A stretch of 42,863 bases of DNA from Bacteroidota bacterium (GTDB lineage: Bacteria > Bacteroidota > Bacteroidia > Palsa-948). The position numbers and the translations under genes were made by a program. The notes below the pieces were generated by a model. It ran no database searches. It had not been told where the DNA came from and saw only the letters and a list, made by a program, of their open reading frames with translations. Shown here piece after piece: positions 2,746 to 42,619 of this stretch. Position 1 is the first letter of the stretch; each line of letters opens with the position of its first letter. The stretch lies in the NCBI GenBank assembly GCA_003164895.1, contig PLUL01000038.1, positions 1 to 42,863 of the forward strand, written 5' to 3'.

Positions 2746-3639
2746 ATGAATAAAAAGATTTTAGCTGTTAGCTATTGGCTATTAGCCATTAGTTATTCCT
2801 TCTCCCAGCCGTTTGTTGATCCTGTTAATTTCAGCTCACAGTTTTTTTCTTCTAATCATAAAGACAGCTCCCACACAAAAAATCAAACAAACGATTATGT
2901 TTTGAATGTTTTTTTTCCGAAAAAAATATCTGAAAGAACTACATTTCTAATAAGATTAACTGGCGAAAATCTTCATTCGGAATATAGATCAACAACAACC
3001 TCCATGTCCGATTTGTACGCAGTTTCTTTGCCGCTTGGCGCGCAATTTCTGACTAAAAACGAAAAATGGAAAATACTCGCAATGGCAATTCCTAAAATAA
3101 GTTCTGACTTTAAAGAAAATCTAACGAACGATTTTCAGATGGGCGGAATTGGATTGTTAAGTTATGTTGCAAATAAAAAACTTCAGTTTAAATTGGGATT
3201 GTATTATAACGGGGAATTCTTCGGAAATTTTTTTGTGCCGCTTATTGGAATTGACTGGAAAGTAACCGATCGATTGAGTTTTTATGGAATTTTTACGACC
3301 AATTATAATATTGAATACAGGTGGGGAAATAAATTTTTCACCGGTATTTGTTTCAAAGCGTATGAGCGTTCATACCAATTATCAAATTTTTACAATAATG
3401 ATTTTGTTTGGGTGAAAGATGATCAGCTAAAATTTTTTGCTGATTATTTTGTCTATAAAAAAATTATGCTCTTTGCAGAAGTGTCACGAAGCCTCAGTTA
3501 TAGTTTACTGGAATACAATAGTGCAGATATTAAAACACCGGTTGTAACCAATCCAATTTATTCTCCATTCAACAATTCATTTTTTTTCTCAGTCGGAATT
3601 GCTTACAGAATAAGAATGCAAGATGATTCGTCCAAGTAA
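2746..3639 (+). CDS. Secreted protein of unknown function, beta-rich (possible outer-membrane barrel)
   Basis: No function is assigned. The 297-residue product has a signal peptide (MNKKILAVSYWLLAISYSFS, cleavage probably near SFSQ). The mature part alternates aromatic, polar and hydrophobic residues, as in an outer-membrane beta-barrel: FQMGGIGLLSYVANKKLQFKLGLYYNG, then FFGNFFVPLIGIDWKV, RLSFYGIFTTNYNIEYRWG and a final FFFSVGIAYRIRM strand. This resembles the DUF6268-like Bacteroidota family, though that is from memory. ATG 2746 is preferred over the upstream TTG at 2740 because TTG overlaps the -7 promoter box. Oddly, most of the signal peptide is encoded by a 7-bp tandem repeat. It is followed 53 bp later by the prolyl oligopeptidase gene, which has its own promoter box. 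Confidence 0.7.
   Translation: MNKKILAVSYWLLAISYSFSQPFVDPVNFSSQFFSSNHKDSSHTKNQTNDYVLNVFFPKKISERTTFLIRLTGENLHSEYRSTTTSMSDLYAVSLPLGAQFLTKNEKWKILAMAIPKISSDFKENLTNDFQMGGIGLLSYVANKKLQFKLGLYYNGEFFGNFFVPLIGIDWKVTDRLSFYGIFTTNYNIEYRWGNKFFTGICFKAYERSYQLSNFYNNDFVWVKDDQLKFFADYFVYKKIMLFAEVSRSLSYSLLEYNSADIKTPVVTNPIYSPFNNSFFFSVGIAYRIRMQDDSSK
2761..2795. repeat. Degenerate 7-bp tandem repeat inside a signal-peptide coding region, 5 units
   Basis: Consecutive 7-mers TTAGCTG, TTAGCTA, TTGGCTA, TTAGCCA and TTAGTTA run head to tail (consensus TTRGYTA). They encode the hydrophobic core of the signal peptide of the overlapping gene. Seven is not a multiple of three, so the three reading phases rotate through the array. 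Confidence 0.75.
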
Positions 3640-3667
3640 AGTCAATATTCTTTCTCCATAATTTTAA

Positions 3668-3675
3668 TACTTTTG
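3668..3675 (+). promoter_or_regulatory. Candidate -7 box for the prolyl oligopeptidase gene
   Basis: TACTTTTG matches TAnnTTTG exactly and lies 17 bp before the ATG. No convincing -33 element was seen. Confidence 0.45.
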
Positions 3676-3692
3676 CCATTCAAAATTTAATC

Positions 3693-5867
3693 ATGAAAAA
3701 ATTAATTTTCTATTCTTCTCTTTTCATTCTTGCGTCATGCGGCAACAAAAAACAGAACCAGCAAACTTCTATTGACCATTTGCCTTATCCTCAAACTAAA
3801 AAAGTGGATACTGTGAATGATTATTTCGGAACTAAAATTGCCGACCCATATCGCTGGTTAGAAGATGATAACTCTGCCGAAACAAAACAGTGGGTGGAAG
3901 CTGAAAATAAAGTTACATTCGATTATCTTTCTAAAATTCCTTTTCGTCAGCAAATAAAAGATCGCTTAACAAAAGTTTGGAACTACGAAAAGTGTTCAGT
4001 TCCTTTCAAACGCGGAAAATATTATTTCTTTTACAAAAATAACGGAATTCAAAATCAAAGCGTGTTATATGTTCAGGAAGGATTGAATGGAACGCCAAAA
4101 GTCTTAATCGATCCTAATACACTTTCTGCCGATGGTACCACTGCGCTTGCTGGCGTAAGTGTTCGCGAGGATGGAAAATACATTGCTTATAATCTTGCAA
4201 AATCCGGTTCTGACTGGAATGATATTGTAACGATGGAAATTGAAAATGGAAAAGTTTTGGCGGACACGCTTCACTGGATAAAATTTTCTCAGGCATCGTG
4301 GAAGGGCGATGGATTTTACTACAGCACTTTTCCTGCTCCGACAAGTCATGCGTATTCAGGCAAGAATGAAAATGGAAAAGCTTATTTTCATAAACTTGGA
4401 ACGAGTCAGTCAAAAGATGAACTTGTTTATGAAGACAAAAAACATCCGGGCAGAAGTTATGGCATCAGCGTTACGGATGACCAGCATTTCATGGGATTGT
4501 GGGGAAGCGAATCCACAAGCGGAAGTTCTTTCGCTGTAAAAGATTTGAATTATTTTGATCCACGAAATGGATATGCGCATTTTGAACCTCAATGGAAATG
4601 GGTTGATACCACTTTCAAGAACGATTATAATTTGATTGACAACATCGGCAATCAACTTCTTGTTCTCACCAATGCCAATGCACCAAAGTGGCAGCTCGTG
4701 ATGATTGACCCGATGAAACCACAAATGAAAAATTGGGAAATAGTTATTCCAGAAAGTGAAGATTTGCTGGAGAATGTTTCGCTTTGCAATGGGAAAATTG
4801 TCGCAACATTTTTGCATGATGTTACAAATAAACTTTGCGTCTATGATTTAGATGGAAAAATGGAAAAAGAAATTCCTGTTCCACCGCTTGGAGTTGCAGG
4901 TTTCAGCGGAGATAAAAAAGACAGTATTGCATTTTATTCATTCACAAATTATACCACACCGACAACGATTTATAAATACAGTATTGGTTCAAATACTTCG
5001 AAAGTTTTTTTTAAACCGAAAGTTGATTTTAATTCCGATGCTTACGAAAGCAAGCAGGTGTTTTATCCAAGCAAGGATGGAACTAAAATCCCGATGATTC
5101 TCACTTACAAAAAAGGAATAAATCTTGATGGAAATAATCCTTGTTTCCTATATGGTTACGGTGGATTTGATATCAGCAATACTCCCTATTTTGTTACAAA
5201 CTCTGTTGCCTTTTTAGAAAATGGTGGCATTTACGCAGTGGCGAATATTCGTGGCGGTGGCGAATACGGAGAAGCATGGCACAAAGCCGGAATTATTTGC
5301 AACAAACAAAATGTGTTTGATGATTTCATCGCTGCGGCAGAATATCTCATTAAAGAAAAATATACTTCATCGCAAAAACTGGCAGTGCATGGTCGTTCCA
5401 ACGGAGGACTTTTGGTTGGTGCAGTTATGACTCAACGCCCTGATTTGATGAAAGTGGCAATTCCTGGAGTTGGAGTTTTGGATATGCTTCGTTATCATAA
5501 ATTCACCATCGGATATACTTGGGCGAGTGATTATGGAACCAGCGCCGGCAAATCACAATTTGATTGCTTGGTGAAATATTCTCCTTTGCATAATGTAAAA
5601 GAAACACAATATCCGGCAACTATGGTCATGACCGGTGATCACGACGACCGCGTGGTGCCTGCGCATTCCTTTAAGTTTGCGGCAACCGTGCAGGAAAAAA
5701 ATAAAGGAACAAATCCGATTCTCATACGCATTGACCAGAAAGCAGGTCACGGTGCGGGAAAACCAACTTCAAAACAAATTGAAGAATGGGCGGATGTGTG
5801 GAGCTTTGTGTTTTATAATTTAGGAATGGAAATCGGGAAGAAACAGGAATCTGAATTATTAAAATAA
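3693..5867 (+). CDS. Prolyl oligopeptidase (S9A family), lipoprotein
   Basis: This is a serine peptidase that cleaves after proline in short peptides, with a gating beta-propeller and an alpha/beta-hydrolase domain. The 724-residue product begins with a lipoprotein signal (FILASCGNKK, Cys16) and so is membrane-anchored outside the cytoplasm. The N-terminal signature DPYRWLEDDNSAETKQWVEA is typical of the family. The catalytic triad is visible: Ser569 in HGRSNGG, an Asp in GDHDDRVVP (residues 649-656), and His686 in KAGHGAGK. The GGFDIS and ANIRGGGEYGEAWHKAG blocks before the nucleophile are standard S9A. Length fits a full family member plus signal. A REP-like hairpin begins 6 bp after the stop codon. 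The physiological substrate is unknown. Confidence 0.95.
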   Translation: MKKLIFYSSLFILASCGNKKQNQQTSIDHLPYPQTKKVDTVNDYFGTKIADPYRWLEDDNSAETKQWVEAENKVTFDYLSKIPFRQQIKDRLTKVWNYEKCSVPFKRGKYYFFYKNNGIQNQSVLYVQEGLNGTPKVLIDPNTLSADGTTALAGVSVREDGKYIAYNLAKSGSDWNDIVTMEIENGKVLADTLHWIKFSQASWKGDGFYYSTFPAPTSHAYSGKNENGKAYFHKLGTSQSKDELVYEDKKHPGRSYGISVTDDQHFMGLWGSESTSGSSFAVKDLNYFDPRNGYAHFEPQWKWVDTTFKNDYNLIDNIGNQLLVLTNANAPKWQLVMIDPMKPQMKNWEIVIPESEDLLENVSLCNGKIVATFLHDVTNKLCVYDLDGKMEKEIPVPPLGVAGFSGDKKDSIAFYSFTNYTTPTTIYKYSIGSNTSKVFFKPKVDFNSDAYESKQVFYPSKDGTKIPMILTYKKGINLDGNNPCFLYGYGGFDISNTPYFVTNSVAFLENGGIYAVANIRGGGEYGEAWHKAGIICNKQNVFDDFIAAAEYLIKEKYTSSQKLAVHGRSNGGLLVGAVMTQRPDLMKVAIPGVGVLDMLRYHKFTIGYTWASDYGTSAGKSQFDCLVKYSPLHNVKETQYPATMVMTGDHDDRVVPAHSFKFAATVQEKNKGTNPILIRIDQKAGHGAGKPTSKQIEEWADVWSFVFYNLGMEIGKKQESELLK

Positions 5868-37045: not shown

Positions 37046-38260
37046 ATGAAATTTGCAAAGCACTTAAATTTTAAAGAAAGTGATGCAGCATATTTTTTGT
37101 GCATCACTGCGTTATATGTGTTTTTTATTTCCGATGCTTGCAATAAAATACTTTATGCTTTTAATTACGATTTCTTCAGGATATCAATTTTTTTTCGTTC
37201 CATTTATGAGGTGTTATTTTTGTCTGCAATCCTCTTTTTTATAAATGATGTGAGATTTTTATTTTTGAAGCTATTGCTGTTTCTTTTTGTACTTTTTATT
37301 GGCGGGCAAATATTAATTTCTTTAAATGCTTCGTATGATTATAATTATCTTGAAAATATTTCTCATTTCAATAAGTATTTTTTTGTATTTATCATTTATT
37401 TCTCTGTATATAGGATTCAGGATCATACGGATAAATTTCAAAAGGTTCTTAGATTAATGGAAAATATTTTTATGATCAACTCAACTGCGGTAATCATCGG
37501 ATTTATATTTAATCTTAATTTTCTGAAAACGTATGCGCTCCACTATTATTTACATGGGTTCAGTGGTTTCATCCCTGCACAAAATGAAGCAACTATGTTC
37601 GTTTTTATTATGGTATCTTATTTTTATTACAAACATTTTATTCTTAATCTAAAATCATGGAGATTCTATTTTATTTTATTTTCAAGTCTTCTTTTGGGTA
37701 CCAAAGGGATATATTTATTTCTTGCAATATTGCTTATTTTTCATTTTCTGTATTTTTCAAACCTGAAAACAAAAATTATTAGTTTGACCTTAATTGTTAT
37801 TATTTCGATAGGATTATTTTTCTATTTTCAAACGGAACAAGCAAAAGTGTTTTTGGAATATTATCTTACTTCGCTAAACAGACAAGGATGGTATGGCATG
37901 CTTGTTTCCGGACGGAATTCTTATGTTACCGATAGAATACCGGGAATTATTAGAAATTGGAATATCGTAAATTATTTTATAGGAGGTGAGGATCAAACAA
38001 GGCAGCTTATTGAAATGGATTTTTTTGATTTATTTTTTTTTATGGGAATAATAGGAACAATATTATTTTTTGTATTGTATTTCACATCCGTATTTAAATT
38101 TAATATGTTGAGACCTTTTAATCTGTTCTTTGTATTTTCTTTCTTTGCTTTAGCATTTTTTGGAGGTCATTTCTTTGCCAGTGCTGTTAACTCATTGTAT
38201 GTGTGTTTATTTTCTATCTACATTTATGCCTCTCAACGAAATAATCAAGAATACTTATGA
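37046..38260 (+). CDS. Wzy-like O-antigen/capsule polymerase (polytopic membrane protein)
   Basis: This is predicted to polymerise flipped repeat units in the periplasm. The 404-residue product is very rich in Phe, Ile and Leu with about ten transmembrane segments. A long periplasmic loop (about 275-325) contains VSGRNSYVTDRIPGIIRNW and then FIGGEDQTRQLIEMDFFDLF, a layout seen in many Wzy proteins. Sequence conservation in this group is low, so the assignment rests on topology, loop position and locus context (Wzx and Wzz-like proteins are both nearby). Its stop overlaps the start of the next gene in ATGA. Confidence 0.75.
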   Translation: MKFAKHLNFKESDAAYFLCITALYVFFISDACNKILYAFNYDFFRISIFFRSIYEVLFLSAILFFINDVRFLFLKLLLFLFVLFIGGQILISLNASYDYNYLENISHFNKYFFVFIIYFSVYRIQDHTDKFQKVLRLMENIFMINSTAVIIGFIFNLNFLKTYALHYYLHGFSGFIPAQNEATMFVFIMVSYFYYKHFILNLKSWRFYFILFSSLLLGTKGIYLFLAILLIFHFLYFSNLKTKIISLTLIVIISIGLFFYFQTEQAKVFLEYYLTSLNRQGWYGMLVSGRNSYVTDRIPGIIRNWNIVNYFIGGEDQTRQLIEMDFFDLFFFMGIIGTILFFVLYFTSVFKFNMLRPFNLFFVFSFFALAFFGGHFFASAVNSLYVCLFSIYIYASQRNNQEYL

Positions 38261-39303
38261 CAAAGATATTGCTGATGAGCAACGGATATCCCTCCAAATC
38301 TCATCCTAATTATTTATCTTTTGTTAAGAACATCAATGATTGTTTAATAGAAGCCGGATGTGAAGTGGATCTGTTGGTGATGGATACTAAGTTTGATAAT
38401 GCTTTTCAAAAATATTTGCAATACATTAAATATTATATAAAGGCATTATTTTTTAATAGGTATAAACAATACGATTATATCTACATTAATATGTATCCAT
38501 GGTGCTTCCTGCCTTTAATCCCCCATTTTCACAATATGAAACACGTGGTTATTCATTGGCATGGCGATGATATTTTACCTCCAACTTTATTGGTAAGCAT
38601 CTTGAATTGGGTATCATATAAGTTTCTACGGAATACTTTTATCCATTTCAGCCCTTCAAAATATTTTGCAAATCAAGTTGCCGAAAAATTAAAAATCAAT
38701 ATTGAAAAAATTATTGTAAGTCCAAGCGGAGGGATTGATATGGAAATTTTTAAGGAAAAAATTGGCAAAGTGAAAACTGCCAACTTAATTCGTTTAGGAT
38801 TTGCATCCGCATTGCTTAAATTAAAAGGCGCTGACTTAATATTAAAGTTGCTGGAAAACATAAAAAGCATTGAAGAAAAGATTCATTGCAAAATAGAAAT
38901 TCATTTTATTGAGTATGGAAAAGAAAAGCAAAAATATTCTGAACTTCTTTCACAATTTCAGAATACTGTTAAGCACTCTCCATATCCTGTTTTTCGTATG
39001 GCAGAATTTTATCATCAAATAGATATCCTGTTGTTTCCTTCATTAAGCGAAAGCCTTGGATTAGCAGCTTTGGAAGCAATGTCGTGTAATATTCCGGTGG
39101 TTGCAACTGATGCATGTGCTTTTCAGGAAACAGTTATGAATGGAATAAGTGGAGAGAGGTTTAAAATAAATGATTTTAATGATTTTCAAAAAGCTATTAT
39201 TAATTGCATTCAAAATATTGATAAATACTCTCCAAGGAATTTCATTGAAGAAAGATATAGTAAGAAATCAGTCGTGGAGCACAATAAAATATTTTTCAAA
39301 TAA
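38257..39303 (+). CDS. Glycosyltransferase family 4 (group 1)
   Basis: This is a retaining GT-B glycosyltransferase predicted to act in repeat-unit assembly. The 348-residue product begins KILLMSNGYPSKSHPNYLSF and has HWHGDDILPPTLLVS in the N-terminal domain. The C-terminal domain carries the E-x7-E motif (Glu265 and Glu273) in FPSLSESLGLAALEAMSCN, followed by IPVVATD. The start overlaps the Wzy-like stop by 4 bp, so the two are translationally coupled. It is the last gene of the long plus-strand run. A hairpin follows 25 bp after the stop. Confidence 0.92.
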   Translation: MTKILLMSNGYPSKSHPNYLSFVKNINDCLIEAGCEVDLLVMDTKFDNAFQKYLQYIKYYIKALFFNRYKQYDYIYINMYPWCFLPLIPHFHNMKHVVIHWHGDDILPPTLLVSILNWVSYKFLRNTFIHFSPSKYFANQVAEKLKINIEKIIVSPSGGIDMEIFKEKIGKVKTANLIRLGFASALLKLKGADLILKLLENIKSIEEKIHCKIEIHFIEYGKEKQKYSELLSQFQNTVKHSPYPVFRMAEFYHQIDILLFPSLSESLGLAALEAMSCNIPVVATDACAFQETVMNGISGERFKINDFNDFQKAIINCIQNIDKYSPRNFIEERYSKKSVVEHNKIFFK

Positions 39304-39328
39304 TTTTTTTTACACATAAAATCATCAA

Positions 39329-39354
39329 CGCCCTTCTGTTTTCACAGAAAGGCG
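39329..39354. terminator. Hairpin between convergent genes (possible bidirectional terminator)
   Basis: CGCCCTTCTG and CAGAAAGGCG pair at 9 of 10 positions around a 6-base loop (TTTTCA). It sits between the end of the GT4 gene and the end of the oppositely oriented FN3 gene. There is no long T tract immediately after the stem in either direction, so efficiency as an intrinsic terminator is uncertain. Confidence 0.55.
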
Positions 39355-39387
39355 CTGAAGGAACACGCTTTTAAAATTGAAATTGAT

Positions 39388-39996
39388 TTATGCTACGATA
39401 ATGCTCGTAACATCGCTCCATGTACTCAAACCGTTATTATCCTCGGTTGCCACACGAAAATAATACCGAGTACCCAATGTAAAACCCCCTTTGATAAAAG
39501 TTCCTTTTCGGGTAACTCCTATCTCAGCAAAAGTAGTTCCATCGGTGCTCATTTGCCAGTGATAGATAACAGATAAAATAAATGCTGTTTTCAGTTTCAC
39601 CTCGCCTGCCACACTAGTCAATTCTGCATGAAACTTAGTGGGTCCGTGAGTGGCATCTGCTTTTACTTCCATGCCCGCACTGAGAATAATGGAAACGGCA
39701 TTTGCCGGATCATTGTTTGCAATGGTTTCCACATAATTGCCAAGCGCATTCAGGTCGCGCACTAGAATTGCTTCCTGCGCATGCATGGCAGCGGTTAATG
39801 GTTTTCCCCCTCCGGATGCTTTGGTTTGTGCCGTTTCAAGATTAGTAACATCGTTACCAATTACGGTTAAAGCAGGAGATGGAGTTGAAAAATTAGGGTT
39901 GCCGGTCATTGAATCTACAATGAACAGCGCTTTTTTGATTAAGTCGGCTATGGCCAAACCCGCAAGTGCCAGCACGACTGTGAAAGTTGTTTTCAT
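39388..39996 (-). CDS. Protein with N-terminal helical region and C-terminal fibronectin type III domain
   Basis: The biochemical role is unknown. The 202-residue product has a hydrophobic N-terminus (TFTVVLALAGLAIADL). Next comes a helical region with DSMTGNPNFSTPSPALTVI and LTAAMHAQEAILVRDLNALG, a pattern I recall from small Bacteroidota FN3 proteins. From about residue 135 there is an FN3-like domain: YHWQMSTDGTTFAEIGVTRK, then LGTRYYFRVATEDNNGLSTW. It is the only minus-strand gene between the Wzz-like gene and the right edge, with higher GC than its neighbours, which suggests separate acquisition. A poly-T tract (on plus) lies directly upstream of the start, followed by the 21-bp repeat array. 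Whether the N-terminus is a signal peptide is unclear. Confidence 0.7.
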   Translation of the reverse strand: MKTTFTVVLALAGLAIADLIKKALFIVDSMTGNPNFSTPSPALTVIGNDVTNLETAQTKASGGGKPLTAAMHAQEAILVRDLNALGNYVETIANNDPANAVSIILSAGMEVKADATHGPTKFHAELTSVAGEVKLKTAFILSVIYHWQMSTDGTTFAEIGVTRKGTFIKGGFTLGTRYYFRVATEDNNGLSTWSDVTSIIVA

Positions 39997-40111
39997 TTTG
40001 ATTTTTTTTTTTTTAGTGATTGTTTATTTTACGTGTTCGGGTTGTTCTGTTTCATGCTGTACTATTTTAGTTTTTATTGATTTTTTGAGAGAAATATGAC
40101 AGAAATTATTT

Positions 40112-40468
40112 TTTTTGAACCCATTCCTAAGATTTTTGGTTCCGGAAATATTTCTTTTGGTTCCATTTCTTGATCTTTTAAGACCAAAAATTTATTTTTT
40201 GAAGTCAAAACTATAAGGAATGGTTCCGTAAATATATTTTTTGAGATCGTTTCATATATTTTTGATTCCAACCATACTCTTTTTGAATTCAAAAATAGTT
40301 TGAACAGATTAAGAAAATATAATTTTGGTTTCATTACTAGTTGGTTTGAATCAATTCCTTTTATTTTTGAAATTAAAGAAGTGTGAAGTGGATTAAAAAA
40401 TAGTTCATTTGAAACTACTTGGTATATTTTTGAAATAGGAATACTTTCTTTTGGTCTCAACTCGTAAT
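40112..40468. repeat. Array of 17 contiguous degenerate 21-bp units with palindromic core
   Basis: The segment divides exactly into 17 rows of 21 bp. Position 6 is G in 15 of 17 rows and position 5 is T in 16. Positions 1-5 are T-rich and positions 12-16 A-rich in many rows. The consensus core approximates the palindrome TTTTTGAATTCAAAAA, which occurs perfectly at 40280-40295, followed by a 5-bp A/T spacer. T-tract and A-tract centres alternate every 10-11 bp. A 139-codon open frame crosses the array on the minus strand (40074-40493), and its heptad look is a by-product of the 21-bp unit. There are no unique spacers, so it is not a CRISPR array. Confidence 0.85.
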
Positions 40469-40735
40469 GGTTATATGTCATTTTCGTTTTCATTGCATCA
40501 TTTTATAAAAGTAATAACAGCGGAGGAAGAAATATATTTTGTATTGATTTCAGGATTTAGACGAATCCATCCCATAGATATTTGAAATACTAATATTGAA
40601 AGACGAATGCTGAAAAAAAATAGACGAGTATGTAATTTATTAGTGATAAATAGGAAGTATGGTTATAATACGGATTCAGTACATTTACACTTTCTTATAC
40701 TTAGGAAATTTATTTTAGCGTTATTGCAATAAGAT
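40469..40735. other. Gene-free A/T-rich region between the 21-bp array and the second asnB-like gene
   Basis: No credible gene was found. The word AGACGA occurs at 40559, 40601 and 40622, spaced 42 and 21 bp, in phase with the adjacent array. A near-consensus -7 box TACATTTA lies at 40680-40687 and is the best candidate promoter for the downstream gene. With 39997-40111 (poly-T tract and A/T-rich DNA) and the array, it makes a 740-bp stretch without a supported coding gene. Confidence 0.4.
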
Positions 40736-42619
40736 ATGTGTGGAATAACCGGTATATATAATTATTCTTCTAAAGAAAAAATTGATCACGCAGCGTTAAA
40801 AAACATGTGTGATATTATTATTCACCGAGGTCCGGATGAAGGTGCTGTTTTTATTGATCAGGGTCATCATATTGGGTTGGGGCACAGACGGCTTAGCATT
40901 ATAGACCTAACTACCGGCAGCCAGCCGATGTCGAATGCTAATGAAAGTATATGGATCGTTTTTAACGGGGAAATTTATAATTATCCTGAACTTAAAAAGG
41001 AACTGATCGCCAAAGGATATAAATTCAGAACCACTTCGGATACAGAAGTGATTATTTATTTGTACGAAGAATATGGAGAGTCTGCATTTTACCGGTTGAA
41101 TGGTATTTTTGCATTTGCCATATTTGATAAAACAAAGAATTGCCTTGTATTGGCACGTGATCATTTTGGAGTTAAACCCCTGTACTATTCTTTTCATAAG
41201 GGCAACTTGCTATTTGGTTCTGAGATCAAAACTATAATTTCGAATAATTCATTTGCACGGGAAATGGATTTTGAAGCATTGAACAGTTTTCTCACTTTCC
41301 GATATAATCCGGCTCCGCAAACTCTTTTTAAGAACATTAAAAAATTATATGCCGGGCATTATTTGAAAATAAGTTTAACAGGAGAACCCGAATTAAAATC
41401 TTTTTGGAATTACTCGCCTGAAATAAATTCAGGAATATCTGAAAAGGAAGCCATTGCCCAATATCAGGGTTTACTCGAAAGCGCAGTGAAGAGACAAATG
41501 ATAAGCGATGTTCCGGTTGGACTATTGTTAAGCGGAGGCGTTGATTCTGCTGTGATAGGACATTTAATGCAGTCTTTTTCAAAAGAAAAAATTAAAACCT
41601 TTACCATTGGATTTGCCGGAAAAGGAGATTTTAATGAGTTGGCAGATGCACGAGCTTCGGCAAAATACATTGGGTCGGAACATTTCGAGGTGACCATTTC
41701 TCAGAAAGAGTATTTGGATTTTTTCTATAAGTCTTTTTACTATACCGAAGAACCCATTGCTGAGATGACGATCCCTGCGCTGTATTATGTATCAAAGCTT
41801 GCGGCAAGCAAAGTAAAAGTTGTTTTGGCAGGACAAGGGGCTGACGAACCTTTGGCAGGTTATAAAAGATATTTTGGAGAACAGCAGATCAGCAAATATT
41901 CTCAGTTGCTGAATTATTTACCCATGCAGAGTTTTGCAAAATTAGCTCCAAGAAGTGAGCGTTTAAGGCGTGCGGCTTATGCATCGCAGTTCACCAATGA
42001 GATGGAACGATTTCTTGCTATTTATACCATATTCACACCTGAACAGAAAGAACATCTTTTAAATAAGGATGTAAAACAACAGACCAGAAACGTTGATTTG
42101 GAATTGATAAAAAGGTTGTATGATCAGGCCTCCGGACTGAAAGATTCATTAGCAAAGATTTTATTCATTGATACACGAAAAACATTAGCGGATAATCTTT
42201 TGTTATTTGGCGATAAGATCACCATGGCAAATTCGCTGGAGATGAGAGTTCCCTTTTTAGATGTTGAACTGATAAAATTTGTAGAAACATTGCCATCGGA
42301 AATGAAATTAAAAGGAGGCGTGCATAAATACATTCATAAAACAGCAGTTAAAAAATGGCTGCCGGATGAAATTATTTATAGAAAAAAACGAGGGTTTTCC
42401 ACGCCAATGGATACCTGGCTGCAAACTGATTTTGCAAAAGAAGCCGGCGATTTATTTAACGACAGTAATTCTGCATGCAGGAAATATTTTAACATTGAAT
42501 TTATTAACGAGATGCTGAATAAACATCAAAACAGGAAGGAAAATTTTCAAAGGAATATTTTTGCACTTTTATCATTTGAAATCTGGCACAAAACATTTTT
42601 TGAACGGAATACATTTTAA
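40736..42619 (+). CDS. Asparagine synthase-like amidotransferase, second copy
   Basis: This is a glutamine-dependent amidotransferase of the AsnB family. In O-antigen loci such proteins are proposed to amidate uronic-acid residues. The 627-residue product starts MCGITGIYNY with nucleophile Cys2. It has IIHRGPDEGAVF, GLGHRRLSIIDLTTGSQPM and the synthetase PP-loop LLLSGGVDSAVIG (about 263-275). The second nucleotide motif reads LAGQGADEPLAGY, while the first copy in this window has LTGDGGDEVLSGY. The two are therefore distinct subfamilies, not a recent duplication. GQGADE is common in sugar-modifying or exopolysaccharide-associated members. It is followed 53 bp later by a glycosyltransferase, supporting a role in the glycan, by inference. 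Confidence 0.9.
   Translation: MCGITGIYNYSSKEKIDHAALKNMCDIIIHRGPDEGAVFIDQGHHIGLGHRRLSIIDLTTGSQPMSNANESIWIVFNGEIYNYPELKKELIAKGYKFRTTSDTEVIIYLYEEYGESAFYRLNGIFAFAIFDKTKNCLVLARDHFGVKPLYYSFHKGNLLFGSEIKTIISNNSFAREMDFEALNSFLTFRYNPAPQTLFKNIKKLYAGHYLKISLTGEPELKSFWNYSPEINSGISEKEAIAQYQGLLESAVKRQMISDVPVGLLLSGGVDSAVIGHLMQSFSKEKIKTFTIGFAGKGDFNELADARASAKYIGSEHFEVTISQKEYLDFFYKSFYYTEEPIAEMTIPALYYVSKLAASKVKVVLAGQGADEPLAGYKRYFGEQQISKYSQLLNYLPMQSFAKLAPRSERLRRAAYASQFTNEMERFLAIYTIFTPEQKEHLLNKDVKQQTRNVDLELIKRLYDQASGLKDSLAKILFIDTRKTLADNLLLFGDKITMANSLEMRVPFLDVELIKFVETLPSEMKLKGGVHKYIHKTAVKKWLPDEIIYRKKRGFSTPMDTWLQTDFAKEAGDLFNDSNSACRKYFNIEFINEMLNKHQNRKENFQRNIFALLSFEIWHKTFFERNTF

Follow-up and report, generated by a model that had tools for sequence, protein, structure and literature searches.

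The 21-bp repeat array in the window (the whole 42,863-nt stretch of DNA analysed here) is one half of a two-part cassette, in which a small gene adjoins a tandem array. The original prediction had treated this array as an isolated oddity lying between a divergent gene pair. The cassette instead recurs dispersed, in many copies per genome, in scattered Bacteroidota, and is previously undescribed. Its arrays are non-coding, and each keeps the period and the dyad symmetry while having a private sequence. The features of the window copy are listed in the table.

Features of the cassette and its surroundings, with positions in the window
Feature	Position	Strand	Basis or remark
Glycosyltransferase gene at one flank of the cassette, an ordinary host gene	38257..39303	+	
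Terminator-like hairpin, 15 pairs, directly after the cassette gene	39325..39358	-	1 found, 0.8 expected by chance
202-aa cassette gene, read away from the array	39388..39996	-	Four-helix N-terminal domain and C-terminal fn3; paralogues
C-terminal fibronectin type III (fn3) domain, about residues 120-202	39391..39639	-	Structure model, fold and profile match
N-terminal helical domain, residues 1-113	39658..39996	-	No Pfam match, no significant PDB fold match
115-bp spacer from array to gene start	39997..40111	-	Putative promoter region of the cassette gene
139-aa open frame spanning the array, not regarded as a gene	40074..40493	-	Homologue search, stops, codon positions
Array of 17 degenerate 21-bp units	40112..40468	.	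Autocorrelation, leave-one-out profile, dyad z 5.3
Perfect palindromic core TTTTTGAATTCAAAAA in the ninth unit	40280..40295	.	
Sole out-of-register unit, best fit at offset -4	40301..40321	.	Leave-one-out profile
Asparagine-synthase-type gene at the opposite flank, running divergently from the cassette gene	40736..42619	+	

The lag-21 autocorrelation over 40090-40480 was 0.430, compared with 0.313 +/- 0.023 in 1000 dinucleotide-preserving shuffles (z 5.1); over lags 2 to 89, every shuffle stayed below 0.430. The predicted 21-bp period is thus well above that of composition-matched sequence. Values at lags 42, 63 and 84 were 0.464, 0.463 and 0.524; the maximum at 84 bp, or four units, is a trace of block duplication within the array. 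When each row was scored against a profile built from the other 16, scores ranged from +0.6 to +17.9 within the array and became negative at the first row beyond either end, which places its limits at exactly 40112-40468. Sixteen of the 17 rows kept the register. The 17 units that had been predicted are therefore present, whereas their exact register is broken by the row at 40301. The perfect core and a G at position 6 in 15 of 17 rows were found as predicted. The unit follows the pattern TTTTTG-R-W-W-Y-C/A-A, with the half-site TTTTGR opposite its own reverse complement YCAAAA and the dyad falling between positions 8 and 9. Position 7 is A in ten rows and G in seven, and position 10 is T in nine and C in eight, so the tolerated alternatives are mirrored too. 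Of the two repeat searches that had been proposed, autocorrelation recovered the array and Tandem Repeats Finder missed it, because the units are too divergent. No second such array occurs anywhere in the window. The out-of-register unit is overlapped, at 40299-40327, by a sequence that matches the Bacteroidota promoter pattern TTTG-N-TANNTTTG and is directed at the asparagine-synthase-type gene.

The co-occurring gene that the original prediction proposed to look for is present beside the array; its product has no recognised DNA-binding motif. An AlphaFold2 model of this protein (pLDDT 87; 93 for the first domain alone) predicts four helices followed by an fn3 sandwich. Only the second domain belongs to the fn3 superfamily by fold and profile, and it accounts for the significant PDB fold matches. 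The helical domain gave nothing significant in PDB and no Pfam match, and searches of Pfam, NCBIfam, PHROGs and PADLOC with the family returned only weak fn3 and tail-protein-like fn3 hits. Proteins of the family are basic (median pI 9.25), with a pI of 6.1 for the window protein. The spacer between array and gene is likely to be the promoter region of the cassette gene; no significant promoter match was found in it.

The gene family is multicopy and patchy across Bacteroidota. A direct search revealed six further relatives in the genome of origin, and a profile search gave eleven matches in all. Each of the relatives inspected there adjoins a 21-bp array, all with different units, the array at L017 being weak. 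Among 60 genomes searched as relatives the family is present in 15, where copies number as many as 22 per genome; three congeneric sister species lack it. Across the wider phylum, a profile built on the first domain placed the family in 6 of 395 genomes, the genome of origin included, and the cultured Pedobacter planticolens (L168) is among the named records carrying it. The broad family alignment (A2) has too few conserved stretches for a degenerate search. Many family loci, L057, L058, L062, L065, L067, L074 and L126 among them, lie at contig ends. This suggests that short-read assemblies break near arrays and that the copy numbers are underestimates.

For a strict test of association, we required a 20-22 bp score, no farther than 900 bp from the gene, that lies 0.05 above the score of the best unrelated period. 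It was passed by 62 of 75 family loci, with a period of 21 in all 62. The corresponding numbers for random places were 12/300 in G000 and 15/300 in G006, both cassette-rich, 5/300 in G089, and 1/300 in the sister genome G003, which is without the family. Among the 13 failing loci, L092 shows a clear array with a 22-bp period (44-bp dimers), and in L165 a clear 41-bp array sits about 900 bp away from the family gene; others have visible but weak arrays or contig-end positions, and at two Methylococcaceae loci (L169, L170) no array is clear. Neither 22 nor 41 bp is divisible by three; both periods lie close to two or four helical turns. The L165 array (L165:1164-1614) is large and very regular, with half-units of 20 and 21 bp. 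About three quarters of the arrays are located upstream of the cassette gene, the rest downstream of it. The pairing reaches very divergent proteins: a 331-aa relative (L131:1134-2129), whose helical part is far longer and which ends in fn3, has a clean 21-bp array upstream (L131:602-895). Small fn3-only proteins of G324, which lack the helical domain, have no array. The family gene can also occur without one, as in the two Methylococcaceae loci, where 92%-identical copies of the gene region (796 bp) sit in unrelated surroundings and an array is not clear; a faint 41-42-bp signal is seen upstream of the gene in L170.

An unbiased scan for arrays of period 15-60 in 400 kb of the genome of origin and 397 kb of G006 found 21 (or 42) to be the commonest period. 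Besides cassettes that the profile had already recognised, it revealed divergent cassette members (L241, about 3360-4172; L244, 5467-6246) and, in about 800 kb, at least five solo arrays without a cassette gene (L192, L194, L198 and two in L239), one solo array being located between convergent 3' ends. No such arrays were found in 158 kb of the sister genome G003. At L199:2248-2622, a 124-aa helical protein ending GDDSNEIQSLGIKKKSEYKKPK.. resembles the first domain without fn3 and has a 42/21-bp array just upstream. Two genes (L197:7659-8633, L230:10160-11266) are true coiled-coil heptad genes with a coding 21-bp period of similar strength, and form a background that array scans must exclude.

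Comparison of loci indicates that the cassette moves, or is gained and lost, because occupied sites differ between species and paralogues have unalignable surroundings. The nth-paaZ junction spans 3.2 kb, including a cassette, in the genome of origin and about 135 and 9 bp in G004 and G006, and a solo array beside odhB is missing next to the orthologues in five sister species. Paralogous cassettes with genes 70-95% identical over parts of their length could be aligned neither in their flanks nor in their arrays. At the nth-paaZ junction the cassette occupies the entire intergenic space, so exact ends and target duplications cannot be fixed there; paralogue alignments show no shared ends, and cassette ends were placed only approximately in the test for terminal inverted repeats. 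Cassette neighbours are unrelated host genes that differ from locus to locus. We found no match to plasmids, phages or viral contigs, and rejected such an origin on this ground. Some paralogues (L020/L053, L075/L081/L086) are nearly identical in the fn3 half and far less so in the helical half, as if the domains recombine or the first domain diversifies. One family copy (L005/L017, G000 contig 79) carries an in-frame stop, indicating that cassettes decay. Beside the 21-bp array of another locus, a 7-bp satellite (CCCAGAA) has expanded (L069:840-955).

Next, we compared 57 arrays. No common motif was detected (score 68.7 versus 65.9 +/- 2.1 for the null), and a shared regulatory motif was accordingly rejected. 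The mean pairwise similarity equals that of column-permuted arrays, with a modest surplus of similar pairs (12 above 0.55, 4 expected), and even paralogues 70-85% identical carry unrelated units. What is kept is the period of about two helical turns, a number of roughly 8-21 units, and dyad symmetry. The dyad z averaged 2.14, with p<0.05 in 58% of arrays, compared with -0.10 for mirror and 0.33 for direct-complement symmetry. This symmetry is base-specific, since strong/weak composition alone would make mirror and dyad behave alike. Mirroring about the dyad holds for the column entropies (p 9e-5) as well as for the minor letters that are tolerated (p 4e-4), and dyad partners do not covary within a unit (2191 observed, 2236 expected). 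Mirrored variants that do not covary fit independently read half-sites of a dimeric DNA-binding protein, and do not fit RNA or DNA hairpins or a protein gene. Inverted-unit copying could mimic part of the dyad symmetry, and an example of an inverted unit can be seen at L239:7557. For 14 of 15 arrays, unit-like sites were no more frequent than chance elsewhere in the 400-440 kb sampled, arguing for action in cis, and a genome-wide regulon of such sites was rejected. The L081 array has one unit-like site elsewhere that scored 25.9 against a null maximum of 22.1. Array similarity rises weakly with N-domain identity (Mantel r 0.149, p 0.0005), a correlation that common descent could equally give. 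The selection on period and symmetry that had been predicted from the window alone is borne out by the 57 arrays, which keep these features rather than a sequence.

The interpretation that we rank first, with a likelihood approaching an even chance, is that the cassette is mobile and that its array is a cis platform wrapped, in the manner of parC, by a cassette-specific reader, probably the neighbouring protein. Each cassette would carry its own array of tandem dyad-symmetric binding sites two helical turns apart, a spacing that would put all sites on one face of the DNA. A dimeric or oligomeric DNA-binding protein may read the half-sites of its own array and wrap or coat roughly 300-450 bp, as ParR does on the parC centromere. 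The reader would have to be cassette-specific because units differ and, for 14 of 15 arrays, recur nowhere else in the sampled genome. It is most probably the adjacent helical-domain protein, because this is the sole factor that is shared by nearly all cassettes, specific to each, and fast-diverging. Binding would be likely to regulate the cassette gene and to help the cassette persist or spread. The binding platform that the original prediction listed among possible roles thus stays the leading idea, as suggested by dyad symmetry and mirrored variants across the 57 arrays.

Several observations weigh against parts of this model. The candidate reader has no recognised DNA-binding motif, its helical domain being an orphan and its other domain fn3; the window protein has a low pI for the family, and arrays are placed downstream in some cassettes. 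Closely similar proteins can accompany unrelated arrays (L072/L074, L081/L086), which is difficult to reconcile with a strict one-to-one specificity unless this is determined by a few residues. Solo arrays mean that another reader, or none, must be allowed. More tentatively, and with appreciably less than even confidence, we suggest that the cassettes form a new class of mobile bacterial cassette based on private self-recognition, in which each copy renews its own ~8-21 dyad sites, with period and symmetry kept, and has them read by its own fast-diverging orphan helical-domain protein. One genome would then hold many independent protein-centromere-like pairs.

The alternative that deserves most attention, unlikely as we consider it, is a selfish satellite-like mobile element whose array is copied or recombined in 21-bp (two-turn) steps and is read by no protein; dyad symmetry would come from conversion of inverted units, and the gene would either ride along or assist mobility. 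An occurrence in many dispersed copies, patchy and lineage-specific, agrees with this alternative, as do the solo arrays, the inverted unit in L239, divergence of arrays far faster than that of their own genes, and higher-order block repeats (42, 63, 84 bp) typical of satellite turnover. Turnover alone, however, leaves unexplained why a two-turn period is fixed in unrelated sequences, why conservation levels and minor variants are mirrored, and why one gene family is in near-constant company; neither terminal repeats nor a transposase was found. We regard it as improbable that the array regulates nearby host genes (in the window, the asparagine-synthase-type gene) or is a phase-variable promoter. 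Arrays do occupy intergenic DNA, mostly upstream of some gene, and the window array has the promoter match at 40299-40327 in its odd row. Yet matches to that pattern across the window are no more frequent than chance, cassette neighbours are unrelated between loci, about a quarter of arrays follow the cassette gene, and one solo array lies between convergent 3' ends. No test gave support to the phase variation that had been proposed.

A transcribed RNA of repeated hairpins is very unlikely. Arrays do fold better than column-permuted versions (mean z -1.5 in the gene sense and -1.8 in antisense), but this excess is expected from dyad symmetry anyway, and RNA hairpins were rejected on the lack of a strand preference in folding energy, of compensatory changes within units, and of an Rfam match above chance. 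It is highly unlikely, too, that intrinsic curvature or a platform for general nucleoid proteins is selected and the sequence itself irrelevant. The period equals two helical turns, and in a simple, self-coded wedge model the arrays as a class are more curved than shuffles (end-to-end 0.71 versus 0.86), a result that is not specific because any in-phase repeat curves. In the same model, the window array was no more curved than its own shuffles (end-to-end ratio 0.871 versus 0.831), and the strong curvature that had been predicted for it was rejected; bending, moreover, does not require a base-specific dyad without mirror (strong/weak) symmetry. Least probable, to a vanishing degree, is an ordinary protein gene with a seven-residue repeat, read from the 139-aa minus-strand frame. 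That frame is open across the window array, and true heptad genes (L197, L230) give a 21-bp period of similar strength. It has no homologue or family, and its third codon position shows no excess variation (entropies 1.36, 1.14 and 1.16), so the purifying selection on this frame that the original prediction had listed among the findings that would overturn it was not seen. Because every one of the six frames is interrupted by stops in 14 of 45 sister arrays, and periods of 22 and 41 bp cannot hold a frame, a coding heptad repeat was rejected.

We then compared the cassette with known systems. Iterons of plasmid origins are direct repeats about two helical turns apart beside the gene of their binding protein. 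The cassette shares the two-turn repeats next to a gene, and differs in having no Rep-like protein, no plasmid match and multiple chromosomal copies. REP/BIME systems with RAYT combine palindromes shared genome-wide with a gene for a Y1 transposase; dispersed palindromic repeats plus a gene family are found here too, whereas a Y1 transposase and a palindrome common to the genome are lacking. Coding heptad (coiled-coil) genes have a similar 21-bp period (L197, L230), and are distinguished by being coding and weakly periodic. As for CRISPR or guide arrays, the unit profiles show no division into repeat and spacer, and PADLOC gave no match.

The cassette resembles type II ParR-parC (and its type Ib and III relatives) in placing a small gene beside tandem repeats that are usually upstream. 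In parC, each ParR dimer binds one repeat, DNA wraps round a protein superhelix, and binding represses the promoter (PMC5016525). By contrast, the cassette has no motor gene (ParM, ParA, TubZ) and its neighbours are unrelated host genes; its protein has no recognised ribbon-helix-helix or winged-helix domain; and it is chromosomal, present many times per genome, with a private array that is sometimes downstream or alone. The closest described element is BrickBuilt of Porphyromonas gingivalis with its 41-nt relatives 464/PgRS, which are likewise dispersed tandem arrays in Bacteroidota. BrickBuilt and 464/PgRS are intergenic arrays of 23-nt and 41-nt units, respectively; BrickBuilt has 19 copies in one genome that share one unit sequence, with a leader and a tail with inverted-repeat ends, and carries no gene (PMC4596501). 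Here, each copy has its own unit, as the motif score above indicates, no common ends were seen, and a gene family accompanies the arrays. No description of such a cassette was found in the literature searched (most subscription journals lay outside its scope), and the view that no named element fits is upheld to that extent.

Repeated elements are normally recognised by their sequence. Here only period and symmetry are conserved, and for that reason the arrays are invisible to BLAST, Rfam and, in the window, Tandem Repeats Finder; a genome may hold dozens of them. The cassette would account for a class of small hypothetical Bacteroidota ORFs that contain fn3 or look heptad-like. Even if it is a mere satellite, it would be a two-turn-locked satellite with a companion gene, of a kind undescribed in the literature searched. 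Should the neighbouring protein be the reader of the array, each genome would provide many natural replicates of a protein with its own 8-21-site DNA platform, and with them a direct route to how DNA-binding specificity and binding sites change together.
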